Source: a virus. From it: a stretch of 52,252 nucleotides of DNA. Location: positions 1-52,252 of the IMG/VR virus record IMGVR_UViG_3300045918_000152; one strand, written 5' to 3'. Position 1 is the first letter of the stretch. Each line of letters starts with the position of its first letter. This document shows, piece after piece, positions 2,154 through 39,308 of this stretch. The notes beneath the pieces were generated by a model. That model worked only from the letters and a program-made list of their open reading frames with translations, searched no databases and was not told where the DNA came from. A program made the position numbers and the translations under genes.

Positions 2154-5100
2154 TACTTATTCCCCTTTTCCCTGTTATGGGCGTTAACCCCTAGAGCGAT
2201 CTGGGGGAGCATTTCAAAGATTGCCGACTTGGTTTGTCTCGACACATCGCCAACTATCTGAAGATTAATCACTGTGCTACCAAATGCATTTGCATTCTTC
2301 TTATGTGTAGGTAGAATAGTTTCACCACCGTGGGCCAGTACAACCATGGGCTTGCCAATACCACCCGGTACAATACCACCTGTATCAAATCCAGGCATCG
2401 GAGGGAATGGTGTATCAAAGCCACTCATATTACCAACACCACCGCGATTTGTAACCCCACCCGCACCATTATCAGTACCACCGCCACTACCAAGTAGCAT
2501 CTGACCAGCTTGCAGTATAGTACCAACCCAATTGAAGCCAGGACCCACGACGTTACCCATTATGGTGGAGAACATCTTTGTGATATTCTTCCCTAGTACA
2601 TCGAGAGTACCTCCGAGACTATCGCCTGCAGTTTGGAAAGAATTACTCAGTTCATTTGCAGCGCCTGTAATTCCAGATGTATCAGTGGCTGGCGTCAGCA
2701 ATCCTTCAAGATTACCAACCCCTTGCCTTGCAAACTGAACCCACATAGCATTTCGTTCGCTACTACCATCGAATGTTGGAGTACCACCAAATATACTTGA
2801 GAACAAATCCCCGACACTACTAAGCGCACCGCCACTACTGAACAAATCTCCGACACTGCTAAGCATACCGCCACTTGAGAACATTCCCTTTATACCATTA
2901 AATAACTGACCGCCCATACCGCCATCAGGGGTAAGAATCTTGGCCATATTTGTGCTGAGACCCGTGAATAGTTTATCACTAAATCCCTTGATCACAGTAC
3001 CTTGGATTGTTGTCGCTAGTGCGCTGAGTAATCCCCCAGTACCTTCACCCTTGAATAGTGACATAATGCCATCACTAAATTCTTGTTTGAATGTATCTTG
3101 AAGTTGCTTTCTCTCAGCAATCTGTGCAGTAACTTGTTCCTCAAATCTAAGACGTTCTTGGATACGCTGGCTAAGAATAGCCGCACGACCAACCTCATCT
3201 ACACCAAGAGTCTGAAGCTCATTAAAGAGTTTCGTTATATTCTCTCGATTAGTCTTAAGGTCAAGCAATACCCTAGGCGCAATATTTGTAAGATCAGTAA
3301 GATCAATTTTAAGTGCCTCAGCAAGATCCTTCATATTGGTAATTGGCGTCATCGAATCAGCTCTCGACGCAATAATCCCAAGTTTCTCTCGAAGCTTAAC
3401 CATCGCCTTTAGCTGTTCAAGTTCACCCTCAGAAGCAGTACCATCATTAGCCTTACGCTGAAGCTCCTGGAACTCTTTGAATTGCCCTGTGGCATCCTTG
3501 AGTACATCAGTAAACTCTCTACGAAGAGCGATATCCATCATTACCTTAGAAGAATCAACACCGCTAACCTGAATTGCTTCAAGTCTGGCCGCGATATCTG
3601 TCTTGGTAACTGCTGCGGCTTCTAATTGAGCAGCAATACGTGCCTTAAGCAGTTTCACCCAATCATCTTGCGTCTGCCCTGAAAGTGCAAACTCACGCTC
3701 GGATCCAGCAAGGTTATTCCCAATTGTAACGAGGCGCTGCATTTGATCTGCGGTAATCCGGATAAGATCTTTGTCAGTAAGACTTAGTCCGAGTTTATCA
3801 GCGAATCCAGTCATTTGCCTATACGCAGGAAGACTCAAATCTGCAAGTGCCTTCTTCTCTTCCCGCTTGACGAGTTCCTGACGATTTAGATCTCGGAATG
3901 TTGCAAGGTCGGCAGGACCGAGGTCACCCTTAGCCTTAAGCAATTTCTTCTTGTTGACAATGTCTTCAAGTTCAGTATTTATCTTCGAGAGTTGCATCAC
4001 AGTAGTGTTATCAAGAAGGAAGAAATCTTCCATCTTAATAGCTGTGCCATCAATAGCTCCAGTGATAGACTCCATAACACCAACAGGAATCTTAGCCAAC
4101 TCGAGTGCAATACCATCACGTGCAGCCTGAACAGCATCCGCAAGTTTCTTCGCAAATGCACTCTTCGGGAAATTGCCGCCCTGACCCGCAAGCTTCGTCA
4201 TAGAGGACGCCGCAGATGTCATGAAGTCGTGAACCTTGACCTTAGCCTCGTCGCTAAGCTGAATCCATTTCTCAAGTGTAATGTCAACACCACCCTGCTG
4301 AGCAATCTCAGCAAATCTGTCAAAGATAGAATCCTTAGGATCTTCAAATAGCTTAGAAGTACGGAACTGCTTATAGATATCATCAAGCTTCAACTGAACA
4401 GCTCTCGCCGCAGTTTCGCTAAGCCCTGTGTCGGGTGCCTTGAGCACATTCTGGAGGGCCTCAATAGCAGGTGCCATATTCTTAAGCTGCTCTTGCTTTG
4501 ATACAGGCAAACGACGAATCTTATCTGCTGCACCGCCGGCAGGACCAAAGATTTCTCCGAGGCGTTCGCTGGTAGACTTAGCAATATCATTAAGATTCTT
4601 GTTAGCATCCGCAAGCTGTTGATTAACAATACGCCATCCCGCAATAAATGCATCAGGAGTCTTTGGAGGATTCCTGTCGAAGTCTTCCTTGGCGTGTACA
4701 GCGTCACGAAGCTTAACAACAGCAATATCGATACCCGAATTGAAGTATTTGAATTGATCAGCAGTAATCGACGAGCCACCACTCTTAGAAAGCAGATCGT
4801 TGAGCTGATTAAACAGACCACCCTTCCCAACACCCTTATCCTCAAGCATCCTATTTGCTTTAGTCTTCAGGTCCTGGATATTCTTCATAGCTGCCGTAAT
4901 AACTTCAGGATTAGTGAAATCTGTAGACATTGCCATATATTCACGAGTACGTGAAGCAATCTCGGAAGTAATACCGGACCATTCCTGGAATCCTTCCTGG
5001 TTCGTTTGATAGAACTTGAGGATCTCTTCCTTGGATACATCAGTACCACTAACCTTAATTTTCAGCTCAATACCAGCATCGAATAGAGCGTTACCATGTA

Positions 5101-8100
5101 CCCAATCAACCATGTCGTTCATCTGCTGACGAAGGCCCATTTGCTCTATCTTGATAGGAATAGCAACTTCGTCTTTGTTTGCAGAGTCGCGGAGTACCTT
5201 AATATTTTCTTCGAACTTAGTGTTGAGCCCAACCAATTGTGCATTGAAGTCAGGTCCGAAGATCATTTCATCAACAGGAATACCCTTGCCGAGACCCACA
5301 GCAAGTATTTTGGAAAGTTTCTCCATGTAGTCCTTGTATCCTGCAACAGAAGCTCTGAATTCGCCCTCAGCAATTTTCTGAGGAACTATTTCTTCAAAGG
5401 CAGCCTTGGCACGATCTTTAATACGCTTAAGCTTACGGAGTTCTTCGTTATCGTTAATGAACATCATCGGGGCCTTAGTACGACCAACATCATCAAGAGC
5501 TTTCGCGTATGCAGCGCTAAGCTCAAGGATATTCTTCTTCTCGTCGTCAGTAAGGAAGGAGGATACTCCTGCCATCTTGTAGGCTTGCTGCTTTATGGTA
5601 TTCGACTCGCCCGAGTTAGGATTAAATCCAGTATTACCAGTAGCTTCCTTAAACCAATTACTAAACAGATTGATGTTGTCTGACATCCGAGCATCCGCCT
5701 CAGCAGCCTGACGTCTCTGATCAGCCTGGATCTGAGCACCTTGGCGATGTAATTCATCAAAGTAATCTGAGATTGGCTTAAATGCCGTTGTAATCTTATC
5801 GCCAATTCTCTTGAAGATGCCATCTGTCTGATCTGGAAGTTTGGTCTGAGAGCTAGTAAATCTAGCCACAAAATCATTCCACACAGAACCAATAATGTCT
5901 ACCTTAGCACCAATAGCTGCGGAAAGATCTCTTGCTCTTTGAATAGCCTTTGCAGGCGCATCACCCCAGATTGTATCAAAGAAGTTGTAGAATTGATTGG
6001 ACCACGACACAGTATTGTCATCCAGCAATTTGGTTATTTGCGTGAACGACTTCTCTACACTAGTAGCAACGTCAAGCTTGGCTGCACGATTAGCAAGTCT
6101 ATCGAACTCATTGAAGGCAGCGTCAACTTGATGACGAGTTTCTTTGTCTACACTACCAGCACTATCAAGAACTTCATTGTATCTCTTTACAGAATCCTGA
6201 ACTGCAGTGGCAACCTTGAGGAGATTGTTGTATTCAGTATCAGACATCTTACTGTAGTCAATACTATTTATCTTGGAGCGAACCTCATAACGCTTACCAT
6301 CAAGTGTAGTGTTATCCACAAGATCAGACAGAGCTTGAGCGCGAGGATGATTAACAGCGTCGCCAGTGAACAGAGAGACTATGGCATTTTTAGCGTAGTC
6401 AAGCTTTTCAAAGAAAGTATTACCCTTGCCGAACAATGCAACTGCAAGCAGGCCAACCCCTAATGTTACAACAGCAATAACTGCAGCGCCAAGAGTTGCC
6501 ATGGCGCTAGCAGCAGCTAGAAGTATACGACCAATATTAAGTAATCCTGCAACAAATGTAGTTACAAACCACCACACTCCTCTTATCAGTGCACCAATTA
6601 AAGTACTAATACTGGTCATCGTTAGCCAAAGACCACTCATTGCCGTAGCAAGACCGCTACCTATTGCCACAACAAGACCCCAAATTGCAGCTCCAAACTT
6701 TTCTACTGCTAGTACAAGACCAATCCAGAATCCCTTTGTAAATATTGGAGCAATACCAATACTATAGAGAGCGGTAGATAGCCTCCATACTAATCCAGTG
6801 GTATTAACAATGGCGCCACCCACAAGGGTCATACCACTATACAGCAGCTTAGAGTCTCTCAACGCCGCGGCCATACCAGCTTGCCAGCCACTTGTGAACG
6901 CCGTAAATGCAAAGCTAAGAATCGGAATAGACACAAGCACACCAACAATACCCATAAGAGAATACTTGATAATGCTAAGGACTTGATTCATTGTAGACAA
7001 ATTGTCTACTGTTTTCCCGGCGCTTGTGCTAGCAGCATTGGCTGTAGTTGCAAATAAAGTAAGGATACCAGCCAGCAGCGCAATGATAGCTATTTTACCG
7101 CCGGCGCCTGTGAGAAGCATTCCGATCACTCCACTAGAACCAGCGAGGTTAGCTGCAAAGGCCTTGATCGAATTCCCGAATCCTACTGCAGCAGACTTTA
7201 TGTCGCCAAATCCTGATTTAAACTTGGAAAGAATTGCGGGACTGAACCTTGCAACCTCTGCGAGCAGCGGAGCAAATGTAGCTGAGATACCTGACTTGAC
7301 TGAATTCTTCCAGCCAGATATCGATTGAGACACACCACTAATGTAGTTACGAACATTGCTAAGGGCAGAGCCAGGGAGTAATAGCGAGGACTGGATAGTA
7401 GCCCACCCGCTCTTAACGTCAGTAGCACCCTTCTTAATCGAATCAAATACATTCTGATACTTCTTAGGGATATCAACAAAGTTAGCTGAGCCTCTTCTCC
7501 CAAAGAACAACTCACCAAGAGTCATACCATTAACAGCATAGGCCATCTTGTTCTTGCTGATATTGCTGAATACCTTCGAGCCAAGGTCGGCTACTTCCGT
7601 TATTGCGGACTTTATAGGGGAGTAAATACCCTTGGCAATTTTAGCACCGGCGGCAGCGTATACACTACGCCCACCAGATATTAGTGGATCAATAAGATCC
7701 CTTACCAATCCAATACCTGCAAAGGTATCCTTTACAGCCCCAAATACTGCTGTCGCAACTTTCCAACCGCCCTTGCGCATCGTGGCAATCAATTTACTAC
7801 CACCATCCTTACCGAGAAATGCCCATGAGAGAAGCGGCACTGCAGCAATAAGACTCTCTACCATTGATACAGACTCAAATACGCTAGTAGTTAGCGCAGC
7901 AATACCTGCAATAAGGAGTGTGGGATTGGCTTCAGCACCAAATAACTTAGTTCCAAAGAAGTTGTCCTTCTTATCATCCTTGCCGTTCTTCTTATTCTTC
8001 CTCGCGGCTGCTCTAATCACGGAAGCCTTCGGGGCAACAGCTTTCCCTAGAAAGTCCGGAAGTAGGGCTGTGCCGAGACTTGCAGCGTAAGAGCCAATAG

Positions 8101-10972
8101 TCTTCACGAGACCGAACACATCACCAAGTTTACCTGTAACAAGCTTAAAACCTACAAACCCAAACAGCATTGTATACAAGAGGCCTGTATTGTTAAATGT
8201 CACAAACTTAACCAGGGCCTTGAGACCCTTACCGATAAGGCCAAACTCATCAAGGAGTGCCTCAACGAATGCAGGGACTGACTGCACGAGTACACCCACA
8301 TAGAACACAATATTCTGAATCAGACCCTTTATAAAGATACCGACTCCGGTACCGAGTGCCTTCGCGAGTTCTGCGGGAATAAACACGCCAATGCTATCTT
8401 TGAGCATATTCATTAATGGAAATACAATACTATTTTCAAGTATGTCGGCTACTGAAGAAACCGCGAGGACCTTACCCCAAATCCCGCCGAATGCATATAG
8501 CACAGCTGCTGTGAATGCGGCCGCAACCACACGGTAGATGTTGTTTCCAAATGCATCGAAATCTATTGCAAGCTTAAACTTCTCAACACCACCGCCCTGG
8601 AAGAAATCAAACACCTTGACTTTGATGCCTGCAAACTTTTGCTTTACAGCATCTGCGAAGCTTTCTACTTTCTTGAGTGCAGTCTTGAGACGGCTGGAAT
8701 CATTGATAACACCATCAATAAGATCAGGCCAGTATGAATGCCCAACAACCCTATCGTATGTGTCAAAGAAAGCCCTTGAAACCATCCGTGTGAATTTAGT
8801 AACAATTCCACCTGCAATGTTGTATAGCCTACCCGCTTCCTCGATCACCTTATCAGCCATGTCGCGCATAGCTCTAGGGAGAGAATCACGAACTTCTCGG
8901 CCAATCTCAAGAAGGAAAACTTTGATGAATGTATAGATTTGAGCGAGCGCCTTCATGAACTTGTCAGGCGCATCCCCAAGGCTGAATATCTTGTCAAAAA
9001 CACTTTCCTTGAATGTAATACCTCTGAGAGCTACGGCTAAAGATTTAAATGTAGTCATAATACTGCTAATCATAACCTTACCGAGCTTTTCTGCGCGGCC
9101 GGTTGTAAGGTTATCGATGATAGCATCAAGAATAGCATCAGTAACAGCCCCTGCGGATTGTGCCACACTAGCCACAAGCTTAGAGATAGGGTACCTAAAG
9201 TTATCTTGATAAACTCTCGCGATAGTACTTCCAAGAATTGAGAAAGCGTTTATGATACGATCGAAACGGATATTGTTAATGAACAACACTCGGTTATCGA
9301 TCAGATTAAGGTAGATGCCAATAGTCTTAAGATTCTCCATCCAGTAGTTGGAAGCCTGAATTGCATCATTACTGAAGATATCAAGATTACCACCGCGGAT
9401 ACTATTTAACGCATCACCAAGGTCATTGAAGTTCGAGGTAAGTTCTACAATCGAGTTACTGCGAAATAACCTTGAAGTAGCTCTCTCGATAGCGTTATCT
9501 GCACCGACCTTTAGGATATTCCCGCTGATGTATTGATACACACCCTCAACTTGCCTTGAAAATAGTGTAGCCTGCTGCATATACCAGGAAGAAATTATTG
9601 TTGTGTAGTAGGTAAATCCGCGCTTTAACTGACTGGTAATTTCCTGAACAGGCAGCAATATGTTAGGCACAACAGTCTTGAATTTGCTAAACAAGCTAAC
9701 AAATGCGTACCCTACGGACACAACAAGGCTAAAGGACTCCTTGAGGATATCAACATATGATCTCGGAGGCTCAGGCCATTCCAACTTGGGGAATGAGAAC
9801 GCAGGGAGATTACTCGTGATAGAGCTAGAGAGTTTGCTAAATGTGCTCTCTTCACGTTTCACAAGACCAATCTTTTGCAGAAGCTCTGTGACAGTTTCAA
9901 GAGCTTTCTTGGAATTTTCGTAGCTAGAATAGATATTAAATATCTGAGCAAAGCTAAGAGTAGAAAGGACTTTCTTAGCAGTAAGAGCTACAGTGCTAAA
10001 AGAATTCAATTCATAGATGTACTGCGAAATGGAATGCTTAAAGAGGAAGATCTCCGACTTAATCCTAGGGGTAAATTCACTGAGGTAGCTCGCAGCCTTA
10101 CCCAGATATGTGCCCATCCGAGTGCTCGCATGATCAAGGCTATCAATCTCTCCTACGAGATTCCTGACCTGTAGTGTGAGTGCATTCAAACCCATCGCGG
10201 CAGTACGGGTAGCACCACCAAATTCTTTCTCGATAGCACCTGATTGTTTAGTGATTGCCTGGAGAACTAGCTCAGTTGTTACCTGACCCTGCGCCGCAAG
10301 ATCACGCAGCTTACCAGCGCTGACACCCAACTCTTTTGTGAGAGCTTCTCCAAGACGAGGGAGCTGCTCCATGACAGAGTTAAGTTCATCACCACGAAGA
10401 GTACCACTACTAAGTGCCTGCGCTAACTGAACAATGGCGCCCCTGGCGGATTCCGCGCCTGCACCGCTAAGTAAGATTGTCTGTTGAATTGTCTTTGTGA
10501 TACCAAGTATGGCATCGTTATTCCTGCCAGTATCCTTTACAGCTCTGGATATTTTATAGAATAAATCAGCTGTATCTTCAAGCTGAGTATTTGTATAGGT
10601 GGAAATGTCAAGAAGCTTACGCTGAACTTGAAGCATGTCCCCTGAAGACTTTGTAACCAGTTTAAGTTTATTGTTGACCAGTGTAAGACTGTCAGCGATT
10701 TGGTAGTAGCCTGTGAGGGATGTGCCAAGTGCAATAGCACCAACAAATCCAATGGCTAACTTTGTAACCTTCTGAAGACCATCGCTAGTCTCCTTTAATG
10801 GAGCAGACATCTCTCTCAGAGACGCCGCACCTTCCTTGCCAATCCTCGCAGATGAATTCGCTGCTTTATCCGCTGATGTTGCTATCTTATCTACTGATTG
10901 AGATAAACGTGTTATGTCACTTCTAGCCGCAGTCGAGTCAGATGATACAACGATCTTAATGTCGTCGCTCAT
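2153..10972 (-). CDS. Tail tape measure protein
   Basis: 2939 residues, the largest gene in the window. The N-terminal 250 residues match the tape measure domain: an early coiled segment (TRLSQSVDKIATSADKAA), then a GTLRGDELNSVMEQLPRLGEALTKE-type region at about 195-220. The middle has many hydrophobic stretches (roughly residues 750-1550) and long alpha-helical, charged segments (about 1600-2600). The C-terminus is Gly-rich and ends with a GGIVPGG...HGGETILPT motif seen in many tape measure proteins. It sets tail length and is extruded into the cell envelope at infection. The start is preceded by AAGGAGG directly after a terminator-like hairpin. At about 0.15 nm per residue it predicts a tail of roughly 440 nm, unusually long. 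Confidence 0.93.
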   Translation of the reverse strand: MSDDIKIVVSSDSTAARSDITRLSQSVDKIATSADKAANSSARIGKEGAASLREMSAPLKETSDGLQKVTKLAIGFVGAIALGTSLTGYYQIADSLTLVNNKLKLVTKSSGDMLQVQRKLLDISTYTNTQLEDTADLFYKISRAVKDTGRNNDAILGITKTIQQTILLSGAGAESARGAIVQLAQALSSGTLRGDELNSVMEQLPRLGEALTKELGVSAGKLRDLAAQGQVTTELVLQAITKQSGAIEKEFGGATRTAAMGLNALTLQVRNLVGEIDSLDHASTRMGTYLGKAASYLSEFTPRIKSEIFLFKHSISQYIYELNSFSTVALTAKKVLSTLSFAQIFNIYSSYENSKKALETVTELLQKIGLVKREESTFSKLSSSITSNLPAFSFPKLEWPEPPRSYVDILKESFSLVVSVGYAFVSLFSKFKTVVPNILLPVQEITSQLKRGFTYYTTIISSWYMQQATLFSRQVEGVYQYISGNILKVGADNAIERATSRLFRSNSIVELTSNFNDLGDALNSIRGGNLDIFSNDAIQASNYWMENLKTIGIYLNLIDNRVLFINNIRFDRIINAFSILGSTIARVYQDNFRYPISKLVASVAQSAGAVTDAILDAIIDNLTTGRAEKLGKVMISSIMTTFKSLAVALRGITFKESVFDKIFSLGDAPDKFMKALAQIYTFIKVFLLEIGREVRDSLPRAMRDMADKVIEEAGRLYNIAGGIVTKFTRMVSRAFFDTYDRVVGHSYWPDLIDGVINDSSRLKTALKKVESFADAVKQKFAGIKVKVFDFFQGGGVEKFKLAIDFDAFGNNIYRVVAAAFTAAVLYAFGGIWGKVLAVSSVADILENSIVFPLMNMLKDSIGVFIPAELAKALGTGVGIFIKGLIQNIVFYVGVLVQSVPAFVEALLDEFGLIGKGLKALVKFVTFNNTGLLYTMLFGFVGFKLVTGKLGDVFGLVKTIGSYAASLGTALLPDFLGKAVAPKASVIRAAARKNKKNGKDDKKDNFFGTKLFGAEANPTLLIAGIAALTTSVFESVSMVESLIAAVPLLSWAFLGKDGGSKLIATMRKGGWKVATAVFGAVKDTFAGIGLVRDLIDPLISGGRSVYAAAGAKIAKGIYSPIKSAITEVADLGSKVFSNISKNKMAYAVNGMTLGELFFGRRGSANFVDIPKKYQNVFDSIKKGATDVKSGWATIQSSLLLPGSALSNVRNYISGVSQSISGWKNSVKSGISATFAPLLAEVARFSPAILSKFKSGFGDIKSAAVGFGNSIKAFAANLAGSSGVIGMLLTGAGGKIAIIALLAGILTLFATTANAASTSAGKTVDNLSTMNQVLSIIKYSLMGIVGVLVSIPILSFAFTAFTSGWQAGMAAALRDSKLLYSGMTLVGGAIVNTTGLVWRLSTALYSIGIAPIFTKGFWIGLVLAVEKFGAAIWGLVVAIGSGLATAMSGLWLTMTSISTLIGALIRGVWWFVTTFVAGLLNIGRILLAAASAMATLGAAVIAVVTLGVGLLAVALFGKGNTFFEKLDYAKNAIVSLFTGDAVNHPRAQALSDLVDNTTLDGKRYEVRSKINSIDYSKMSDTEYNNLLKVATAVQDSVKRYNEVLDSAGSVDKETRHQVDAAFNEFDRLANRAAKLDVATSVEKSFTQITKLLDDNTVSWSNQFYNFFDTIWGDAPAKAIQRARDLSAAIGAKVDIIGSVWNDFVARFTSSQTKLPDQTDGIFKRIGDKITTAFKPISDYFDELHRQGAQIQADQRRQAAEADARMSDNINLFSNWFKEATGNTGFNPNSGESNTIKQQAYKMAGVSSFLTDDEKKNILELSAAYAKALDDVGRTKAPMMFINDNEELRKLKRIKDRAKAAFEEIVPQKIAEGEFRASVAGYKDYMEKLSKILAVGLGKGIPVDEMIFGPDFNAQLVGLNTKFEENIKVLRDSANKDEVAIPIKIEQMGLRQQMNDMVDWVHGNALFDAGIELKIKVSGTDVSKEEILKFYQTNQEGFQEWSGITSEIASRTREYMAMSTDFTNPEVITAAMKNIQDLKTKANRMLEDKGVGKGGLFNQLNDLLSKSGGSSITADQFKYFNSGIDIAVVKLRDAVHAKEDFDRNPPKTPDAFIAGWRIVNQQLADANKNLNDIAKSTSERLGEIFGPAGGAADKIRRLPVSKQEQLKNMAPAIEALQNVLKAPDTGLSETAARAVQLKLDDIYKQFRTSKLFEDPKDSIFDRFAEIAQQGGVDITLEKWIQLSDEAKVKVHDFMTSAASSMTKLAGQGGNFPKSAFAKKLADAVQAARDGIALELAKIPVGVMESITGAIDGTAIKMEDFFLLDNTTVMQLSKINTELEDIVNKKKLLKAKGDLGPADLATFRDLNRQELVKREEKKALADLSLPAYRQMTGFADKLGLSLTDKDLIRITADQMQRLVTIGNNLAGSEREFALSGQTQDDWVKLLKARIAAQLEAAAVTKTDIAARLEAIQVSGVDSSKVMMDIALRREFTDVLKDATGQFKEFQELQRKANDGTASEGELEQLKAMVKLREKLGIIASRADSMTPITNMKDLAEALKIDLTDLTNIAPRVLLDLKTNRENITKLFNELQTLGVDEVGRAAILSQRIQERLRFEEQVTAQIAERKQLQDTFKQEFSDGIMSLFKGEGTGGLLSALATTIQGTVIKGFSDKLFTGLSTNMAKILTPDGGMGGQLFNGIKGMFSSGGMLSSVGDLFSSGGALSSVGDLFSSIFGGTPTFDGSSERNAMWVQFARQGVGNLEGLLTPATDTSGITGAANELSNSFQTAGDSLGGTLDVLGKNITKMFSTIMGNVVGPGFNWVGTILQAGQMLLGSGGGTDNGAGGVTNRGGVGNMSGFDTPFPPMPGFDTGGIVPGGIGKPMVVLAHGGETILPTHKKNANAFGSTVINLQIVGDVSRQTKSAIFEMLPQIALGVNAHNREKGNK
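2801..2878 (-). repeat. Two 39-bp tandem repeats inside the tape measure gene
   Basis: Units 2801-2839 and 2840-2878 are near-identical in-frame repeats of 13 codons, encoding the Ser/Gly-rich motif LSSVGDLFSSGG twice near the tape measure C-terminus. They look like a recent in-frame duplication in a flexible linker. Confidence 0.7.
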
Positions 10973-12410: not shown

Positions 12411-12439
12411 GGGGAGGGTGCTTTAGCGTCCCCTGGAGG
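12411..12439 (-). repeat. GC-rich intergenic repeat element, copy A
   Basis: The minus strand reads CCTCC, then CCAGGGGACGCTAAAG, then a C-rich end. It is nearly identical over 29-30 nt to copy C at 39737-39766. AGGG and CCCT can pair around GC-TAAA-GC. It is noncoding and lies between a terminator and an AT-rich leader. Confidence 0.7.
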
Positions 12440-14289: not shown

Positions 14290-15375
14290 TTAGGCGTGGA
14301 AGATCGGCAGAATGCCAAGGGCCAGATAGTCCAGCTTACGGCCCCACGAAGCGGCAGTACCGAACAGGGTATCTGTGGCGAACGCATTGGTAGCGCCAGC
14401 CCAGTCATAACCCCACGGATGCACCACGAAGCCCCAGCGATTCCAGACGTTGGTCGAGCCACCGCCGGTATACAAGTCAGCCAAGCGCTGAACTTCAACA
14501 GGCACATCAAGAGGAATCGGCGTGAAGGAAATGGCACCCGGCTTGCAGATGAATGTCGTCTTGACAGAGCGGTCATTCACGTTAGCAGTAGCGCTAAGGT
14601 CACCCTGAGCAGCACGCGTCAGGATCAGACGGAACTTACCACCAAAGATGGTTTGGAATGTCAGGTTACCATCGGTCACAACAACGGTATCCACCAGGTT
14701 AGCCGCGCGGAGTTCCGCAAGGTTTTCCGGCGAAGTAACCATGTACATGTAATCCGGCTCGTAGTCCTTGAAAGCAGCGCCAATGGACTTGAACAGACGC
14801 TCGCCACGAGCGGCACCAACGGCGGTGCTATCAATCAACTTACGCTCATCGCCAGCGCCAGTCGCAGCGGCACCAAACAAGCCCAGAGCGTTGATGTCAA
14901 CGTAGAAGCCAGTAGAGGTGGCATCAGTCGTGTAGGCAGTAATACCAACACCACGAGCAACTTCGGCAGCGGCAACACCCTTGAGCACAGCCAGGATGGC
15001 GTTATGCTCGTCCTGAGCGCGAACTTCACTGAAGTCACGAGCGATCTTCTGCAGACCGTCTTCCTGAGTCACAACCTTTTGCAGGTTAACTTGCTGAGCA
15101 CCGAAAGTACGAACAGTCTTAACGTAGTTCGCGATATCGGTCGAGATATCAGTATAGGTACCGGCGGTAGAAACCGACAGCGACGCAATATTGATATTCG
15201 GGCTCAGCGGCTTGTACCAACGCATTTGGCCAACATAAGATTCGCCACTAACATCAATACGGGCATCCGTACCGACAATAGCTGTCGAATTCAGCTTCTT
15301 GGCCGAAGTGTACATTGCATCGCTGTACTGCGAGATAGCCAGGGCAACCGCCTGGAAAAGTGTGTTTGAAATCAT
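14290..15375 (-). CDS. Major capsid protein
   Basis: 361 residues starting at ATG 15375 with AGGAGA upstream. It follows a scaffold-like gene and precedes connector genes, the classical place of the HK97-fold capsid subunit. Features include an N-terminal helix (LFQAVALAISQYSDAMYTSAKKL), a long central helix (VTQEDGLQKIARDFSEVRAQDEHNAILAVL) and an aromatic C-terminal part with WNRWGFVVHPWGYDW. There is no N-terminal delta domain; assembly would depend on the separate scaffold. Higher GC and favoured codons compared with neighbours suggest high expression. Confidence 0.82.
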   Translation of the reverse strand: MISNTLFQAVALAISQYSDAMYTSAKKLNSTAIVGTDARIDVSGESYVGQMRWYKPLSPNINIASLSVSTAGTYTDISTDIANYVKTVRTFGAQQVNLQKVVTQEDGLQKIARDFSEVRAQDEHNAILAVLKGVAAAEVARGVGITAYTTDATSTGFYVDINALGLFGAAATGAGDERKLIDSTAVGAARGERLFKSIGAAFKDYEPDYMYMVTSPENLAELRAANLVDTVVVTDGNLTFQTIFGGKFRLILTRAAQGDLSATANVNDRSVKTTFICKPGAISFTPIPLDVPVEVQRLADLYTGGGSTNVWNRWGFVVHPWGYDWAGATNAFATDTLFGTAASWGRKLDYLALGILPIFHA

Positions 15376-15386: not shown

Positions 15387-16022
15387 CTAGATATTGAATT
15401 GTCCAAACTCCCCAGCCATTGCAGCAGCGAGAGCTTCTTGAGTAGTCATTTCAGTAATTTTCTTCTTTTGATCCTTGGGGCCACCACTACCAGTACCACC
15501 GTTAGTACCCGCACCACCACTAGACTTAGGCTTGAAGAGGAAAGAATTATCCTCATCCTTCGCGAAAGTGGTCACGTAGTCCTTAATGGTAACGCCAGTC
15601 TTGTGAACCCATTGTCCATCTTTATCCTGCACCAATTGATCCACAACATCCCGGTAGGCCATTTCACGGCTACGGTCATTACGGAATTCCAAGCCACCAA
15701 TAGCTTCCTTGACAACGCTATCACGCTCATACGTGACAATGCGAGCCTTGGCAATCTTCAGTTCTTCTTCAAGAGCAGTCATCTTCAGCGCAGTAACTTC
15801 AGTATGCTTACCTGCGGCGGTAAGGTCATCGAGTTCCTTTTGCTTCCGATCTGCTTCCAATTGGGTAGCCTTACGAATAGCTTCATCACGAGCGGCGAAC
15901 GCTCCATCCAACTTAGTCTTGATTTCCTTAAGCTTGTCTTCCACTTGCGCAGCGACTTGAGCTTCGATTTCTTCCTTAGTCAGGGGCTTCACATTGTTGT
16001 CATCGTTATTTTCAGCGGGCAT
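15387..16022 (-). CDS. Capsid scaffold protein
   Basis: 211 residues from the ATG at 16022; a TTG at 16049 would add nine residues but is a poorer start. The protein is acidic and helical, with a coiled-coil-like KEEIEAQVAAQVEDKLKEI segment and further heptads to about residue 110. The C-terminus has a Gly/Ser-rich linker followed by a short QEALAAAMAGEFGQFN tail. Such helical, charged proteins immediately upstream of a major capsid gene are scaffolds that leave or are cleaved from the prohead. No protease domain is present. Confidence 0.72.
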   Translation of the reverse strand: MPAENNDDNNVKPLTKEEIEAQVAAQVEDKLKEIKTKLDGAFAARDEAIRKATQLEADRKQKELDDLTAAGKHTEVTALKMTALEEELKIAKARIVTYERDSVVKEAIGGLEFRNDRSREMAYRDVVDQLVQDKDGQWVHKTGVTIKDYVTTFAKDEDNSFLFKPKSSGGAGTNGGTGSGGPKDQKKKITEMTTQEALAAAMAGEFGQFNI

Positions 16023-16087
16023 TTTATAGTTCTTTCTTGACACAGTCAATTTTTAATGATTCAAATCTAGGCACAGCCTTAAATTCG

Positions 16088-19000
16088 TTACGGTCCGATT
16101 CCATACCAATCCCATCCAGGCGGTATCTTCTTCAGAATATCTTCTCTAGTGATAGCGTTAGGTGGATCAATAAGTCCATCATTCCTTGCTTGCTCTACAA
16201 GAGCCCTATAGGATTCGTCGCTAAGTCCTAACTCTCTCATCTTCTTCAACGTATTGAGAATAGTTTCACTCTCTACGGCATCAGCGTAAATCTCGCGTAA
16301 TGCATCCTTGGCCTTACTAACATCACCAATATTGGTAAAGAAAGCATCATGAATAGTGGCAGTCGGAATATTATTCTTTCTACCCCACAATAAGAATTGT
16401 CTAACAATAGACGCATCGTTCATGTGGTTACCATTAACACCCATACCAATTCTAGCGCGGCTAATAGAAGCCTTACCCAACAATGTTGCATCTTTTGCAG
16501 CATCTTCGTAAATATTACGGACCATCCTCTTCGACTCAGGGTCAAAGAATTCAATCGAAGTTTGGATTTTAGGTCTATATCTCTGGAACAGTGTCTTACC
16601 ATCAAAGGTAACCCAGGGAATATCCACTGCCTGAGTTTCTTCAACGTAAGCCTTCGCGGCTGCATTCCAGAACTTAACGAATTTCTGCGTAACAGGTGCA
16701 CGCTCAGCAAGGTGCCTTGACATGATTTCAGAAACTTTCTTGAAATCTTCAGGGCCAACAATACCTACTCGTACATTGCTTAGTCTTTCGACAAAAGTGT
16801 CTACATCGGGGTGGAGACCTGCAGCGTCTCTCAATAGCTCACGCCCCACAGGGACTTCACCATTGATAACATCTGCAATCTCACTTTTTAAATTCTTCAA
16901 TCCAGTGACAACGTTATCAGCACCAATATAGTTTGCATCCTTGATGGACCTATCAATTATATTGTATATACCTCTCGCGTCTTCTCTAGTTACAACTGTA
17001 TAACCCTTCTTTTCAAGTACACTAGCAAACTTAGACTCAATGTTTGCAGCCTGAGTTGCCTTACCGGCACCATAGAAGGAGACCATGTTCTGAGCCTTCG
17101 CAGCTTTCTGAAGGTCAGTCCATGAGATGTTTGCATCTCTTAATGCCTGAATAGCCTGAAATTCAGGGTCAGCCACAGTGTCCATCGCAACCAAGTCGTA
17201 AAGACGATTCTTGCGGGTTGTTGCAAGGACATTACTGTTTACTGCGATACTGCGATCGCGAGTACTAAGGCCGATAATTTGAGCACCAGAACTACTAGCA
17301 TCATTCTCAATCATCAATTTTGATTCAAACCCATCAAAAGCGCCGGCAATATTAAATCTACCACGGGTATATTTATGTGCACGGGCATACTCAAGGGCTA
17401 GCCTTGTGATTTTAGGAACTTCCTCTGCTTCCATCGCTCTCACAAGGGGATGCTCAAGGAAATCTCGAATCTTCTGATCTTTTTGTGTCTTAGCCATCAA
17501 CAATTCGCCGAGAGAACGAATCTTGGATTCATTATCAGCGAAGATCTGAAGACGCCCTGCCTGGGTAAGTGCCTCAGTAGCGGGTCCTATGAGCGATCCT
17601 GTCTGTACCATGAGTTCACGTAATTCGGCAGGGCCAAATTGTCGTGATACGGCACTATTCAGAAAAGGTCTTACAACTTCACCGCCTGTAGGCGAAAGGT
17701 AACCCTGATAGTAGACACGGCCACGACCGTCAATTTGCGCTAAATTAGTAAATGGTACACCACGTTGTCGGTGCCACTTGATTGTTTGCATAAGGCCGTA
17801 GCCCTGATCTCCGCGCTGAATAATCAGTTTGCGGAAATCATTAAGCTCATCCCACTTCTTTGTGTTACCGCGAGGATCTCTGAAGCGAACAACCTCATCC
17901 ATAAATCCTGCAAACTCATCATCAATTTCATACTTCACAGACATTGCATGGTTAAGCATATCAGCAAAGTCGTTATCAACAAGGATCTTGTCGTAATTTT
18001 CTGAGGCGCGCCTAGTAATGATGGCTATCTTGGTGTCATTACCACGAGCATCAAAGTATGTCTTCTTTCCAGGGATCACATAAAGTTTATCCCGATCGCT
18101 GACTACACCGATACGCTGTGCAATAAGAACTTGTCTATTTCTTGACTGGAGCTCGAGCATATCAGGATCAAGAATGGTAACCTCACGACTAACAGTGTCC
18201 CTCCACTCTCCGGAAGGCCTGCCAGTCTCGAGATCGATCGCGGCTCGTCGTGTCTTACCACGGCTAAGTACTCTAATCTTTCCTTGTTTACGAAGGCCCT
18301 CAAGTATTCTCGATCCGTCCGCATGGAAGTCCTGTAGTGTTGGCTTGTGCCATGGAAATGTAGGCTGCCAATTATCACGAAGGCTCTTGCCAATATCAAT
18401 AGCAATACTGTCGTAATCAGTAGCAAAACCACTTGCAACAACCTTCATGGCTCTTGCAATAACACCCACAGCCTTTTCGTTATCTAATGCGCTAGTAAGA
18501 AGCTTGTCCTTGTACGATCGCTTAGAGCTAAGAAAGTTAATCTCCATATCAATGATGCTACGGAAACCTTCTCTTTGCCCTCGCATGAACTCATCAATAA
18601 GGCTTTCGTTAGGAACACCCTTAATGAAGTTCAGAAGGCGGCTACCCCCAGGGACCTTCTTGGCTTCTCCACTAACAAACTTGTCAACTCGTTTAAGAAT
18701 CTCTTTCTTTGTAATCGGAAGTTTAGTCTTGTCAGGATCGGTGAAATAGGCTTTTAAAGGAGCCCTGCCACTAAGATACGAATCCTGAGCGGTACTACGA
18801 CCGTATTTCTCAGCCCATGCAGCGGAATATCTTTGGTTATCAAGCAAATTATCTGCGATGTCCTGGAAGCGGAAGTACTTACCTAAAATTGAAACCTTGG
18901 CGTCTTCTCCAGAGCCATAGGACCCGAATAGCTCAGCACGCTCTCGTGATCGCCTATCCAGAATCCTGGAGACGTTCACAACAGAGAATTGTGCTTCTTT

Positions 19001-20509
19001 ACGTGCGACAGCGCTAAAGTTCTCCCATTGTTCTTTGTTCGTAGCATAACGCTCAAACAGTAGTCGGAGATTTTCAACAACAACGCTTTGGTTATTTACA
19101 CCAATCTTGTCTTCAAGAGATTCGGCGAAAGATTCAATAAACTTCTTTTGGTCTTGTGAAAGGACCTTTGAGTTCTTCATGAAGTCGATACGTTCCTGAT
19201 ACACAGAAAAATCGGGATCATAAAGAAGGGTTGATTTTTGTTCACCAGTAAAAGGATCAAATTGTTGGTTACGCTCATCAAATACGTTATTAGCGCGTAG
19301 ACGAACTGAACGCTTACCAGGGAGACTTGTACCACGGAAGTCTGTAAGAGACATTGCCTGGTTCATCGATTCAGCATCACTGATATACATATCTCGTAGC
19401 TGGTTTTGTATACTCGTAGAGCGCATGATGTCGTAGGGCCTAGATGCCTCCACAATCAGCTCTGCTGCGTTGGCCTTACTGAATGCCCCCTGGAGTGTGG
19501 GGAAGATGCTTGTGCGGGCGTTGTCAAGACGTCTAAGGCGTTCAATACCAATGGCGTCACCGATACTAGTAAAGAATTCCTTGATATCAAGAAGACCCTG
19601 CTCAAACAATCCAACCTTCTCTTCAGTTCCGAGATGGGATACTTTAACATCCATCGGCTGTCTACGAAGCCATCCTGTGTAATTCTCCGCAGCGGGTGCT
19701 GTACCATCAAGAACCTTAGGATCAAGTGATGTGAATCCTAGTTTGAACCTAGAATTCTTCTGCATCTGGGATTTGCTCTTCAGCACAGGAACCATACACG
19801 AACGGCAATTCCAATGGAGAGGGGGGCGATACCTAGTATCACCTAACTCATACACTTCACCATCATGCCTTGAGCAAACCTCACTAGTGCGAGAGTCAAG
19901 TACAGCAGTAAAGCGATACCCGAAGACAATATCCTTGTTGGCATTCATCACCTTATCAAGGGACGATGAGCTAACATTCGTGAGGGAAGTTCTTACAAGA
20001 GCCTTGATCTGATGTTGCGTAACCGAGACAGATTGCGCTACATCAGCAATGATATCCTTCTGGGATTTCTTTGCAGCAGCACCTCTTGCGAGAACACCAC
20101 GAATTCGGATGAGTTCTCCAGTACCAATCCGATTGAATTGTTCTCGTAATGGCCTTCCGAGTCCAATATTAGGACCCACAAGATCAGACGCAATGTCTGC
20201 ACCACGAGGTGGCATATTTACTTTGAAGAAACTTCCTGCAGCCTTCTCGAGGTTATTCGCATGAAAGGTAATAGAGGCATCACTAAAATCATTAATAGCA
20301 CCACGACTATTGCTATGAAGTTCAGTCATCGCCCTCTTAATCTCTTCAGAGGTATCCGCCCTAAGATTCCTATTGAGGATATCCCTAAGTCTCTTTTGAT
20401 GTCTACGCACACTACGATCATTGTTGATGTGCGTTTCCATCTCATAGAGGCGTACGTCAGCAAGATGCTGCACGACTCGATCGTACAAGTCTTGATTTAT
20501 ACCTGACAT
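16088..20509 (-). CDS. Mu gpF-like head morphogenesis protein fused to a T7/N4-type single-subunit RNA polymerase
   Basis: 1473 residues with a clear ATG and AGGAG upstream. Residues about 130-260 form a Mu gpF/SPP1 gp7-type minor head domain with D205-R-T-S-E-V-C212 and H232-W-N-C235-R-S-C238. A helical region of unknown role covers about 270-850. The C-terminal 550 residues carry single-subunit RNA polymerase motifs: DGRGRVYYQGY at about 926-936 (T/DxxGR); NDASSSGAQ with D1070 (motif A, T7 D537); K1138...FYGAG with Y1146 (motif B, T7 K631/Y639, same 8-residue spacing); and IHDAFF with H1387-D1388 (motif C, T7 H811/D812). All catalytic residues are present, so it should be active. Because gpF-type proteins are carried in the head, I infer a virion-packaged polymerase used early in infection. 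It is followed by scaffold and capsid genes. Confidence 0.88.
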   Translation of the reverse strand: MSGINQDLYDRVVQHLADVRLYEMETHINNDRSVRRHQKRLRDILNRNLRADTSEEIKRAMTELHSNSRGAINDFSDASITFHANNLEKAAGSFFKVNMPPRGADIASDLVGPNIGLGRPLREQFNRIGTGELIRIRGVLARGAAAKKSQKDIIADVAQSVSVTQHQIKALVRTSLTNVSSSSLDKVMNANKDIVFGYRFTAVLDSRTSEVCSRHDGEVYELGDTRYRPPLHWNCRSCMVPVLKSKSQMQKNSRFKLGFTSLDPKVLDGTAPAAENYTGWLRRQPMDVKVSHLGTEEKVGLFEQGLLDIKEFFTSIGDAIGIERLRRLDNARTSIFPTLQGAFSKANAAELIVEASRPYDIMRSTSIQNQLRDMYISDAESMNQAMSLTDFRGTSLPGKRSVRLRANNVFDERNQQFDPFTGEQKSTLLYDPDFSVYQERIDFMKNSKVLSQDQKKFIESFAESLEDKIGVNNQSVVVENLRLLFERYATNKEQWENFSAVARKEAQFSVVNVSRILDRRSRERAELFGSYGSGEDAKVSILGKYFRFQDIADNLLDNQRYSAAWAEKYGRSTAQDSYLSGRAPLKAYFTDPDKTKLPITKKEILKRVDKFVSGEAKKVPGGSRLLNFIKGVPNESLIDEFMRGQREGFRSIIDMEINFLSSKRSYKDKLLTSALDNEKAVGVIARAMKVVASGFATDYDSIAIDIGKSLRDNWQPTFPWHKPTLQDFHADGSRILEGLRKQGKIRVLSRGKTRRAAIDLETGRPSGEWRDTVSREVTILDPDMLELQSRNRQVLIAQRIGVVSDRDKLYVIPGKKTYFDARGNDTKIAIITRRASENYDKILVDNDFADMLNHAMSVKYEIDDEFAGFMDEVVRFRDPRGNTKKWDELNDFRKLIIQRGDQGYGLMQTIKWHRQRGVPFTNLAQIDGRGRVYYQGYLSPTGGEVVRPFLNSAVSRQFGPAELRELMVQTGSLIGPATEALTQAGRLQIFADNESKIRSLGELLMAKTQKDQKIRDFLEHPLVRAMEAEEVPKITRLALEYARAHKYTRGRFNIAGAFDGFESKLMIENDASSSGAQIIGLSTRDRSIAVNSNVLATTRKNRLYDLVAMDTVADPEFQAIQALRDANISWTDLQKAAKAQNMVSFYGAGKATQAANIESKFASVLEKKGYTVVTREDARGIYNIIDRSIKDANYIGADNVVTGLKNLKSEIADVINGEVPVGRELLRDAAGLHPDVDTFVERLSNVRVGIVGPEDFKKVSEIMSRHLAERAPVTQKFVKFWNAAAKAYVEETQAVDIPWVTFDGKTLFQRYRPKIQTSIEFFDPESKRMVRNIYEDAAKDATLLGKASISRARIGMGVNGNHMNDASIVRQFLLWGRKNNIPTATIHDAFFTNIGDVSKAKDALREIYADAVESETILNTLKKMRELGLSDESYRALVEQARNDGLIDPPNAITREDILKKIPPGWDWYGIGP

Positions 20510-24025: not shown

Positions 24026-24337
24026 TCACACTATGCCCTTCTTGCAGTCTATAGTCATGGTCTCAGTACTAAACTTAACACCAGTATCCGTAGTGTAGCG
24101 AATATCCCAGCTAAGCTGACCTGTTGGCCAATCTGCTTCTGCGTAACCTGTTGCAGGTTTAAGCTGATAAGTTCCTAAAGAATCTGATCTATTAAACACT
24201 TCAAGCACTGCAACAACAACACCCTGGCTATTACGAATTTTGCTTTCAATTCCCCAGCCAGTAATTACTTGTGGTGTTAAGTTAATAACTACAGCAAGCG
24301 CAGGCTGAAAGGAATCACCCTTTTTAAACTCTATCAT
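24026..24337 (-). CDS. Hypothetical beta-rich structural protein
   Basis: 103 residues, entirely beta-type with a FKKGDSFQPALAVVIN start that recalls small phage baseplate-associated domains such as BppU N-terminal domains. The start overlaps the portal stop (ATGA-like). Likely an accessory to the adjacent fiber-like genes. Confidence 0.45.
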   Translation of the reverse strand: MIEFKKGDSFQPALAVVINLTPQVITGWGIESKIRNSQGVVVAVLEVFNRSDSLGTYQLKPATGYAEADWPTGQLSWDIRYTTDTGVKFSTETMTIDCKKGIV

Positions 24338-25929
24338 GCGCCTACTCCATTAATAGCAATTTTTGTGGGTGTAAGATCGATCAATGGATCTGTCTGAATT
24401 TCAGAGATACCTTCCTTGTCATCATAATCAGTAGGAAGAATATCATTTTGCTGAGCAATACTGATAAAAACACTCCGAGGGATCTTACCTGATTCGTACC
24501 ATTCAGTAACGAGGCGCATCCAATCAGCACCAATAGGGACAGGGTTGAAGTCCTGGCTTAGCATGAAGTCGATATCGCCTGTGTTTACCTCGATATCATA
24601 CTTCCAAAAGATCATCACTTGGAGCACCTTCTCAAGTACTTTGCTGATCTTAACGTTAAGAAGACCAAGTTGAGCTGTTTGTGCAGCATTCCGAATTTCA
24701 AGGCTAACCCCAGATTCTGCACCACTACCCTCAGGACTAAGCATTCGAATACCCATCCTGGACATTTCTTCAATGGCAGAGGCGATAGCTTTCTCCATAT
24801 CCTGAAGAGCTGCTGTAGGAGTTTCTAGAGCAGTTACCGTCTCGCCCTTCTGCACGTGAATCCAGCTGCCAAGACCACTCTCAACAATAGATTCGAAATT
24901 AGCATCAGTCATGTCGCTAGAAACCACAGGGGTATACGTAGCAGCGCCATAAAGAAGGTGATTCCGACGGGAAATCTTGTTGTAGAGAGCACACTCGCGA
25001 TCCACAAGAGCCTGCAGAATTGGCTCCTTGACATCAACATCGCCATTCATTGGATACGCAGGGATAAAGTCAAGACGCTTCCCGTGAGCCATTGGGAATA
25101 TTGGAGCGCCGTCTTCCCTCCACCCCTGTGTATTAGAATCCGTGTTTGGATTCATCACACCAACGTTTACACTGATTGTCTCGTTAGTATCCCGAATATG
25201 CTTCTGAATTACAAGAAATCCAGTTTCATCTAGAAAGTAATCGTACACTGTATCAACATAAGAAGGATGATGTGCATTAGCTTCATACGTTTCAGTATAC
25301 ATCCGAACAGTAAACTTTGTAAGTTGCTGCTTTCCAGTGTTTCCTGATTTACCCTTGCGCCAATTGATTACTTGTTCACCACGATAAAGGACACAGTAAG
25401 GACTGAGATCTTTACGTTCTTCCGCAGTAAGTGCTTCAAATTCTGCATCAGTAAGTGACGGGTGGTCTACTACAATCCAAGCGCGACTAATACTAAGCTC
25501 ATCCCAGAGAGCCTGGTCAAGAAAACTAACCATTGATTGGCTTTCAGCACCAAACTCAGTCTCAAGCCATTCCTTTGCATCCGTAGGGACACTTGGAGGA
25601 ATTGTAAATTGGGGGTGCTTTCGTAGAAGTCCGCCTACAAGAATCTTAGCGTATTGTGCAACAAGGCCAGGGAGTTCTGCCTCTGACTTATAGAATTCAT
25701 ATTGCTCAGGTTTCATGAATGGCGAGAATGGAATAAGAATATTCTTTCTGCAATTCACAGTAGAATCGTATGCCTTGGCTGTTTTCTCGCCACCAAGAAT
25801 AGCTCTCGCACGAGCCCAGGTGTCTTTCATACTGAGGTACGCTGCGCAGGGATCACCCACTGTTTTTGGGGTGGCCTTGCTTTCTGTCGCGGTATTGGCC
25901 GTACTACCAATAACAATAGGTGATGTCAT
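24334..25929 (-). CDS. Portal protein (DUF4055-like)
   Basis: 531 residues, the typical size for a portal. The N-terminal segment with PCAAYLSMKDTWARARAILGG, NILIPFSPFMKPEQYEFYKSEAE and the region about LVGGLLRKHPQF (about 80-105) match phage proteins annotated as DUF4055, a portal family. Helical wing and stem regions follow, with QLGLLNVKISKVLEKVLQVM near 430-450. The portal is the dodecameric DNA channel at the capsid vertex and docks the terminase. Fiber-like genes separate it from the gpF-like gene, which is unusual. Confidence 0.78.
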   Translation of the reverse strand: MTSPIVIGSTANTATESKATPKTVGDPCAAYLSMKDTWARARAILGGEKTAKAYDSTVNCRKNILIPFSPFMKPEQYEFYKSEAELPGLVAQYAKILVGGLLRKHPQFTIPPSVPTDAKEWLETEFGAESQSMVSFLDQALWDELSISRAWIVVDHPSLTDAEFEALTAEERKDLSPYCVLYRGEQVINWRKGKSGNTGKQQLTKFTVRMYTETYEANAHHPSYVDTVYDYFLDETGFLVIQKHIRDTNETISVNVGVMNPNTDSNTQGWREDGAPIFPMAHGKRLDFIPAYPMNGDVDVKEPILQALVDRECALYNKISRRNHLLYGAATYTPVVSSDMTDANFESIVESGLGSWIHVQKGETVTALETPTAALQDMEKAIASAIEEMSRMGIRMLSPEGSGAESGVSLEIRNAAQTAQLGLLNVKISKVLEKVLQVMIFWKYDIEVNTGDIDFMLSQDFNPVPIGADWMRLVTEWYESGKIPRSVFISIAQQNDILPTDYDDKEGISEIQTDPLIDLTPTKIAINGVGA

Positions 25930-32918: not shown

Positions 32919-34238
32919 CTAGAATCCAAAACCCTTGTGAACACTCTTTTGACTGCTCCTGACAGGGAATCTATAGTCGGTTATGTATCGAACACCATCG
33001 CTGAAATGTTCGACACCTGTACGTTTATCAATGACAGCCACATTGGGATTAGTCTCAAGCCATACTGTACGCTCAACACTGGAAATAGTCCTAGGGGCGC
33101 GCTTGGGACAGAAGAACATTTCTACTGCGCCATGAGCATTCTTAAGCTTACGATTCACAGCATTAACGCTGTCCACAATAGGAGGATGGGCATCATGTGC
33201 TAAAGTGATAATCTTGTGTGCTTGGAGTATGCTGAAGTCAGTAATACCCACGAGCGACGAGGTTTTCCTTGCACGTCCAGCAGGATCAGGGTACGCGAAT
33301 ATTCGTCTTCCAGGGAAATCTGCGACGAGTCGTTTTGCGAGGGAGTCAGTGTCAGGGTGTCCTGAAAACTCTCCAATGGCATGCATTTGACTTCCTCTAA
33401 TGGCCCAGACGGTACACGCCATAACGCCAACGTTAAAGTCGATTGAGCAATGCACATCCTCACCTTCCTGGAGAGGTAGTAGATTGGGATCAAGATGTAA
33501 TTCGCGATCGAAGCAATAGAATACATTAGCACCGGACTCCTGAAATGAGGCTTCATATTCTCTCGCGAAACGCAGAGGATCAATGTTGCCCTTGATTTTG
33601 TTAATCTCATCTTCACTAAGATAAGGGGAATCCCTATAAGTGTAATGAAAGCTTTTCCAGCGATCAGGCTCGACGTCCTGTCGCAGATACATCTCATGGA
33701 AGTAATCCTTACCACGTGGTGTACTAATGGCGAGGAATCTATGATTACCAGGCCATCGAGTTATCATCGTGGGCTGTATAATACTTTCGAAAGAATCTTG
33801 AAGACCAGGTCGACCTTCCCATGTAGTGACCTCATCGCCTACAACCAGGAATTGGCCGCTACCGCGCATTCTTTCGGAAGCTTCATAAGACCAGAGATTA
33901 AGGGATACATTACCTGGAAACAGGAAGAATCCATCGCGCTCTGAGTGCTTAATTGCGTAAGCCTTGAGATTGAACATTGTTGTAAGTAGGGGCCAATAGA
34001 TATCAGTCACTTGACCGTATGTAGGGGCAACAATACTTACGTTCTTATTTGGAATCCTTGGGGAGAGCCGCATTAAGTAGTCTACGGCCTTTACCGCTAC
34101 AGCACTACCAAGGACTGACTTACCATATCCCCGCGATGCTACTACGCATGCATACCTAGCCACTTCAGGCTGGTCTTTAGGAAACAGGTAACGCATCACC
34201 TGGGACTGGCCCCTGTGAAGAGTTACCATGTTTGCCAT
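32919..34238 (-). CDS. Terminase large subunit
   Basis: 439 residues. Walker A SRGYGKS at 35-41 and Walker B with D135-E136 (LVVGDE) define the packaging ATPase. The C-terminal part has the RNase H-like nuclease pattern with SIDFNVG (near 260), a Pro/Asp-rich YPDPAGRA segment and a final acidic stretch with HFSDGVRY. The enzyme packages and cuts concatemeric DNA into the prohead. The start overlaps the SET gene stop (TAATG). Confidence 0.9.
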   Translation of the reverse strand: MANMVTLHRGQSQVMRYLFPKDQPEVARYACVVASRGYGKSVLGSAVAVKAVDYLMRLSPRIPNKNVSIVAPTYGQVTDIYWPLLTTMFNLKAYAIKHSERDGFFLFPGNVSLNLWSYEASERMRGSGQFLVVGDEVTTWEGRPGLQDSFESIIQPTMITRWPGNHRFLAISTPRGKDYFHEMYLRQDVEPDRWKSFHYTYRDSPYLSEDEINKIKGNIDPLRFAREYEASFQESGANVFYCFDRELHLDPNLLPLQEGEDVHCSIDFNVGVMACTVWAIRGSQMHAIGEFSGHPDTDSLAKRLVADFPGRRIFAYPDPAGRARKTSSLVGITDFSILQAHKIITLAHDAHPPIVDSVNAVNRKLKNAHGAVEMFFCPKRAPRTISSVERTVWLETNPNVAVIDKRTGVEHFSDGVRYITDYRFPVRSSQKSVHKGFGF

Positions 34239-34732: not shown

Positions 34733-34743
34733 TTATGCCTTCT

Positions 34744-34790: not shown

Positions 34791-34818
34791 TGATGGGCGT
34801 CGCGAATGCGACAAGACA

Positions 34819-34894: not shown

Positions 34895-34898
34895 AAAT

Positions 34899-34973: not shown

Positions 34974-35001
34974 AATACTTTATTAGATTACACCACAAAA
35001 T

Positions 35002-39216: not shown

Positions 39217-39308
39217 GGCATCCTCCTTTTATTGTTTGCTGTGACTCTTTAGCGTCCCCTGGTGACCCAGGGCAAGCGACCTGGTGCACCTGGCACGAAA
39301 TCAAGGAG
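39217..39308 (-). promoter_or_regulatory. Intergenic region with GC-rich element, copy B
   Basis: 92 bp between two ORFs. The minus strand carries CCAGGGGACGCTAAAG (39262-39247), GTGCCAGGTGC (39296-39286) and several CCAGG-type repeats able to form small hairpins. The AAAGGAGG of the next gene follows. It lacks the C-rich arm of copies A and C. Confidence 0.55.

Follow-up and report, generated by a model that had tools for sequence, protein, structure and literature searches.

A MuF-type head protein fused to a T7-type RNA polymerase, a putative virion RNA polymerase of long-tailed phages

Introduction

Virion RNA polymerases (vRNAPs) are known from N4-like podoviruses, from jumbo phages, where they are multisubunit, and from the P23-45 group. 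We analyzed a stretch of 52,252 nucleotides (positions 1 to 52,252 of the IMG/VR record IMGVR_UViG_3300045918_000152; hereafter, the window), which is a fragment of the genome of a long-tailed phage and in which one open reading frame (ORF) encodes a MuF-type minor head protein joined to a T7-type RNA polymerase (RNAP). We consider it very likely that this fusion is a virion RNA polymerase which, carried on a portal-associated minor head protein, starts infection and then hands over to a second polymerase. A preliminary description of the ORF had taken packaged polymerases to be confined to podoviruses, a background that is incomplete in view of the multisubunit enzymes of jumbo phages and the tape-measure-fused polymerase of the siphovirus P23-45 (PMC10770324).

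The vRNAP of N4 (Schitoviridae, gp50) is, like the fusion, a T7-superfamily polymerase within a large multidomain protein encoded with the virion genes, and in N4, as would be the case in the fusion phages, a second phage polymerase acts after the virion enzyme (PMC4496689). However, N4 vRNAP is 3500 aa long, lacks MuF and carries TxxGR, whereas the fusion has 1473 aa and DxxGR; in N4 the polymerase lies inside a giant protein with a C-terminal metallopeptidase and a packaging region, whereas in the fusion it is C-terminal, and comparison of the fusion with Pfam and PHROG gave no peptidase match. Reports of N4-type virion enzymes come solely from N4-like phages (PMC5512222). Motif, architecture and a tree in which the N4 vRNAPs form a separate clade rule out membership of the N4 vRNAP family; a profile comparison with N4 aligned poorly and is not used as evidence.

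P23-45 gp96 likewise belongs to a siphovirus, joins a polymerase to a structural protein of the virion, and is followed by a later, non-virion polymerase (PMC10770324). It is, however, a two-barrel, cellular-type RNAP with the DxDxD motif, borne on the tape measure protein, whereas the window has a T7-type enzyme on a MuF head protein. Assignment of the fusion to the two-barrel class (double-psi beta-barrels, DxDxD) was rejected, its Pfam and fold matches being to the T7 type only. Two-polymerase cascades operate in P23-45 (PMC10770324) and in N4 (PMC4496689), and by analogy the fusion would work like N4 vRNAP and gp96 while belonging to neither family.

Enzymes that travel in phage heads usually do so on a MuF domain (PMC5512222). 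The MuF-effector or polyvalent proteins treated there (relatives of Mu gpF and SPP1 gp7) resemble the fusion in pairing an N-terminal MuF with an enzymatic C-terminus, with delivery to the host presumed; the C-termini described are those of toxins and of modifying enzymes (PBECR RNase, 2H, RelA/SpoT, PRTase, zeta-type kinase), and the passages on them name no polymerase borne on MuF (PMC5512222). Our literature search found no MuF–polymerase fusion described, many subscription papers, including the original description of Naomviridae, lying outside its coverage.

The fusion gene

The minus strand at 16088–20509 is an uninterrupted frame of 1,473 codons, with the following parts.

16088..20509, minus strand: MuF–RNA polymerase fusion protein, 1473 aa, ~165 kDa; one ORF, matched at its two ends by Pfam and PHROG, with full-length single-ORF homologues
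19799..20101, minus strand: Phage_Mu_F (PF04233; SPP1 gp7-type minor head) domain, residues 137–237
18410..19702, minus strand: conserved helical linker, residues ~270–700, within the modeled 1–720
16091..17932, minus strand: T7-type polymerase catalytic region, residues ~860–1473, by profile match and fold match
17717..17731, minus strand: DxxGR motif, D927–R931
17279..17302, minus strand: motif A, D1070-A-S-S-S-G-A-Q1077
17069..17098, minus strand: motif B, K1138...Y1146-G1147
16346..16351, minus strand: motif C, H1387-D1388

Pfam places Phage_Mu_F at residues 137–237 (E 6e-9; 37.1 bits against a cut-off of 29.6) and RNA_pol (PF00940) at residues 1013–1435 (E 2e-10, over the cut-off), and PHROG 241 (head morphogenesis, E 3e-44) and PHROG 414 (RNA polymerase, E 4e-26) match opposite ends of the protein. 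A profile comparison of the fusion with T7 plus stand-alone RNAPs gave E 6e-9. By the features tested, the fusion is thus a MuF-family protein joined to a T7-superfamily polymerase, as the preliminary description had read it. The polymerase motifs also lie where that description put them (D927-x-x-G-R931, D1070, K1138...Y1146-G and H1387-D1388), and D927, R931, D1070, K1138, Y1146, H1387 and D1388 are invariant in 44 close relatives (a non-redundant set, <95% identity) and 47 relatives of a second clade. Three of the four MuF residues it had named, D205, C212 and H232, stand; the fourth, C238, is threonine in phage DSS3_VP1, and the invariant second cysteine is C235. D205, C212, H232 and C235 are identical in all 44 and all 47 relatives. 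The polymerase would carry out DNA-dependent RNA synthesis.

A merger of two genes by frameshift or assembly error, which had been raised as a way the fusion might prove false, is ruled out by separate contigs and by relatives. Two other IMG/VR contigs (L002 and L004) carry parts of the gene, residues 1–1219 and 799–1473, at 100% identity, and 75 loci, DSS3_VP1 included, encode the full-length fusion as one ORF (~47–63% identical).

Relatives of the fusion

An alignment search of IMG/VR found relatives in 263 contigs, 80 of which were kept for analysis. Searching again with EBPR siphovirus 1 as the lead gave relatives in at least 508 contigs, of which 80 were likewise kept; the two scans may overlap. 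A single ORF spans both domains in 53 of the 80 contigs kept from the latter search, and the 47 single-ORF relatives aligned from this second, EBPR-like clade are ~30% identical. The domain order for which homologues were to be sought therefore recurs both in the 75 full-length single ORFs and in the second clade. A scan of GTDB genome contigs with two peptide patterns matched no relative, cellular or prophage.

Full-length homologues in sequenced phages are those of DSS3_VP1 and DSS3_PM1 (47% identity) and EBPR siphovirus 1 (28%). With the polymerase half alone as query, strong matches were again limited to DSS3_VP1/PM1 and EBPR siphovirus 1, followed by T7-like RNAPs with marginal E-values. 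The DSS3_VP1/PM1 homologue (YP_010105321; gp108 in DSS3_VP1) is annotated as "minor head protein-like protein" or "head morphogenesis" and gp47/gp49 of EBPR siphovirus 1 as "head protein"/"hypothetical protein", with the polymerase unmentioned in each case; adding the polymerase half corrects the annotation of all three phages.

DSS3_VP1, which infects Ruegeria pomeroyi DSS-3, is classified in Naomviridae together with DSS3_PM1. DSS3_VP1 is among the phages with deoxyuridine-containing DNA (dU-DNA), and at least one Naomviridae member replaces thymidine by deoxyuridine (PMC12697855). A relative of deoxycytidine monophosphate (dCMP) deaminase was found in four contigs of the window's clade, in DSS3_VP1 and in 2 of 11 contigs of the other clade, and is absent from the window. 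Given this patchy occurrence, dU-DNA is no general requirement.

Predicted structure

An AlphaFold model of residues 285–1473 (predicted local distance difference test, pLDDT, 76; predicted template modeling score, pTM, 0.68) resembles, among PDB structures, mitochondrial RNAP (POLRMT) and T7 RNAP most closely (Foldseek E 1e-18 to 1e-15); against T7 RNAP, E is ~1e-17 and the template modeling (TM) score on target reaches up to 0.59. Compared with viral models, it matches the DSS3_VP1 homologue first, then T7-like RNAPs, with N4 virion RNAPs lower down. The polymerase part is thus predicted to have the right-hand T7 RNAP fold. Structure prediction, proposed earlier for the region between the domains, was informative for part of it: the polymerase fold appears in the 285–1473 model, but the model of residues 1–720 (pLDDT 82) has no structural match in the PDB. 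The ~600 residues first described as unexplained shrink in the same way, since T7-like profile homology begins near residue 703. About 430 residues (270–700), helical and conserved (0.53–0.82 per 30-residue block in the alignment of close relatives), remain without structural match or assigned function.

This conserved linker leaves room for a cleavage site, and one could suppose that the polymerase is cut from the head protein at assembly and used elsewhere, or that it makes replication primers. DSS3_VP1 has its own primase-helicase, however, and no protease was recognized near the gene among the proteins scanned, a scan that left out many small ORFs. We regard such roles as barely credible.

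Genome context

The fusion gene sits in the head operon, between the portal and major head protein genes. The genes run on one strand from terminase through portal, head decoration, fusion, scaffold, major head protein and adaptor to major tail protein and tape measure. In DSS3_VP1, too, the homologue lies downstream of the portal gene and directly upstream of the scaffold and major head protein genes.

32919..34238, minus strand: terminase large subunit (PHROG 2, E 5e-30; PF03237)
24334..25929, minus strand: portal protein (PHROG 145, E 1.5e-51)
15387..16049, minus strand: head scaffolding protein, immediately after the fusion gene (PHROG 206, E 6e-14)
14290..15375, minus strand: major head protein (PHROG 247, E 2e-24)
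12488–13024: major tail protein
2153..10972, minus strand: tail tape measure protein, 2939 aa, of a long-tailed phage (PHROG 339, E 3e-61)

The last two genes bear out the siphovirus-type tail of the preliminary description. In 17 of 17 records tested, from both clades and counted per record, the fusion is the sole MuF gene.

A second, stand-alone polymerase

A stand-alone T7-like RNAP of ~740 aa is encoded in 21 relatives: DSS3_VP1, eight contigs of the window's clade and all 12 long contigs of the other. Window-clade contigs without it are all <40 kb, the window excepted, and the partial 54-kb EBPR siphovirus 1 also lacks it. In a tree of polymerase domains the fusion enzymes form one clade (support 0.98) and the stand-alone enzymes another (0.94), each splitting into the same two phage groups, with the N4 vRNAPs apart; motif B of T7 and of the stand-alone RNAPs is misaligned, and only the deep grouping is used. 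The two polymerases thus seem to have been inherited together as a pair. The separate clades give no support to an origin of the fused polymerase by recent duplication of the stand-alone enzyme of the same phage.

Both the operon and the pairing bear on the possibility that the fusion polymerase acts in the producing cell, on late genes, and is packaged passively or keeps MuF as a leftover, early genes being left to the stand-alone or the host enzyme. The fusion gene does lie in a late structural operon, so that fresh protein appears late, and the genome-wide motif described below also precedes late genes. However, relatives already have a second T7-like polymerase for middle and late genes, and another late enzyme on a head protein is therefore hard to justify; nor is MuF vestigial, because all its key residues are invariant and the fusion is the sole MuF gene. 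We find such action in the producing cell very improbable.

Two further features of the stand-alone gene were seen. At most loci of both clades (L106, L107, L195, L197–L202, L204), a terminator-like hairpin followed by a T run precedes it by a few hundred bases. Three contigs, G016, G020 and G027 (loci L204–L206), encode either a larger form of the enzyme (926 and 994 aa) or one in two pieces (523 + 239 aa), which suggests inteins or introns there too, as proposed below for the fusion gene.

Promoter-like motifs

Across the window, DSS3_VP1, G001 and G002, a genome-wide motif, AGGKNRCGYTAAAG, occurs at 30 sites on the gene strand and at none on the other. The window holds three copies, all between genes.

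12421..12434, minus strand: AGGGGACGCTAAAG motif, candidate phage polymerase promoter, between the major tail protein and tape measure genes
39247..39260, minus strand: AGGGGACGCTAAAG motif, candidate phage polymerase promoter
39748..39761, minus strand: AGGGGACGCTAAAG motif, candidate phage polymerase promoter

The distribution of this motif, with sites a short way before the DSS3_VP1 portal gene among others, fits a candidate promoter of the stand-alone RNAP. A second, early motif, GAGAAAANTNANGYATCTATAATGA, has 15 distinct sites in 2.8 Mb, compared with two in 1.3 Mb of shuffled sequence (≤4 mismatches allowed; 13 of the 15 have ≤2). Most of these sites stand 0.9–6.6 kb upstream of the stand-alone RNAP, in DSS3_VP1, G001, G002, G006, G008 and G012, often in two copies, and this placement of the GCATCTATAATGA sites upstream of the stand-alone polymerase fits a candidate early promoter of the virion enzyme. 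In the two EBPR-clade genomes examined, neither motif was found between genes.

The polymerase could instead be mainly a motor, anchored at the portal or envelope channel and pulling the DNA in by transcribing it, with gene expression secondary. MuF would place it near the portal, transcription during genome translocation has been proposed for P23-45 (PMC10770324), and N4 vRNAP has been discussed as a participant in genome injection (PMC4496689). Discrete candidate early promoter sites before the second polymerase, however, point to gene-specific transcription, and a pulling role is compatible with a packaged, gene-transcribing enzyme rather than exclusive of it. That the polymerase is mainly a motor seems to us highly improbable.

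Early promoters of N4-type vRNAPs are hairpins. Short hairpins follow some copies of the early motif. Three EBPR-clade contigs have, close to the gene for the stand-alone RNAP, a repeated intergenic element that can be read as an H-type pseudoknot in which the two stems covary, AGCC-CT-GAACA-T-GGCT-NTAAAC-TGTTC (G023:33432, 38514, 38546, 38603; L203:397; L198:3382), a candidate RNA element or hairpin promoter; against Rfam, the G023 region gave a single match, to a small nucleolar RNA model, below the gathering score.

A proposed transcription cascade

We propose that the fusion protein would be made late, from the head operon, be placed in the capsid near the portal by its N-terminal MuF domain, and travel down the long tail together with the DNA. 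Inside the host cell, the T7-type domain at its C-terminus would transcribe the earliest genes from phage-specific promoters without the host polymerase, and one early product would be a stand-alone T7-like polymerase of the kind that relatives encode, which would transcribe later genes. An enzyme of a head-operon gene, made late and serving early genes, would therefore have to be packaged. A packaged and ejected polymerase appears to be the best-supported reading, judging from the head-operon position, the sole MuF, the invariant active site and the second polymerase. Packaging, ejection through the tail, activity and the assignment of motifs to polymerases are each inferred.

Several points weigh against this cascade. 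In other phages MuF proteins serve in head assembly, and their delivery into cells is mostly predicted. In one relative, L070, the early motif lies beside the fusion gene on the opposite strand. The motif includes a perfect TATAAT and may thus be a host-sigma promoter, although no −35 element was found at the usual distance. The early motif was not found in the window, nor was a second polymerase in its 52,252 nucleotides. Truncation is the probable reason, because 2.1 kb of the window lies beyond the tape measure gene and in DSS3_VP1 the stand-alone gene starts 6.7 kb past that gene; we infer that the window's own phage has a second polymerase.

A wider claim, on which we are evenly divided, is that an independent T7-type vRNAP lineage on MuF runs a two-polymerase, early-to-late cascade in widespread long-tailed phages, with early transcription from phage-specific promoters by an enzyme that stays tethered to the portal channel or is ejected from it, independent of host RNAP from the first minutes. 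If the cascade is true, it adds a large, mostly environmental group of siphoviruses with a polymerase on MuF, the most general phage delivery handle, and offers an account of how Naomviridae, at least one of them with dU-DNA, can start transcription. The two promoter-like classes and the pair of new single-subunit polymerases are testable in an isolated phage.

Interrupted genes and other features

Unlike the window's copy, that of EBPR siphovirus 1 is interrupted; the insert carries an HNH endonuclease gene and has no match at gathering score in Rfam. In the EBPR-like clade the fusion gene is broken at one motif B site (KAQNMV/TFYG), give or take a few codons, in ten loci and in EBPR siphovirus 1, by inserts of ~0.5–1.1 kb (for example L119:11201–12064, L123:5377–6413, L171:9674–10576 and L006:23180–24118). 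The site looks like a homing-intron hot spot. At an eleventh interrupted locus, L193, the break lies ~40 codons upstream of it. Relatives of 1778 aa at L152, L153, L154 and L162 have ~230 extra residues between motifs B and C.

Elsewhere in the window, a gene for a GDSL-lipase-like protein (31063–32514) adjoins the terminase and PhoH genes, and tRNA-Thr (TGT) and tRNA-Glu (TTC) genes at 34733–35070 have hairpin-plus-CACCTTTATTTTATCAAAT elements on either side.

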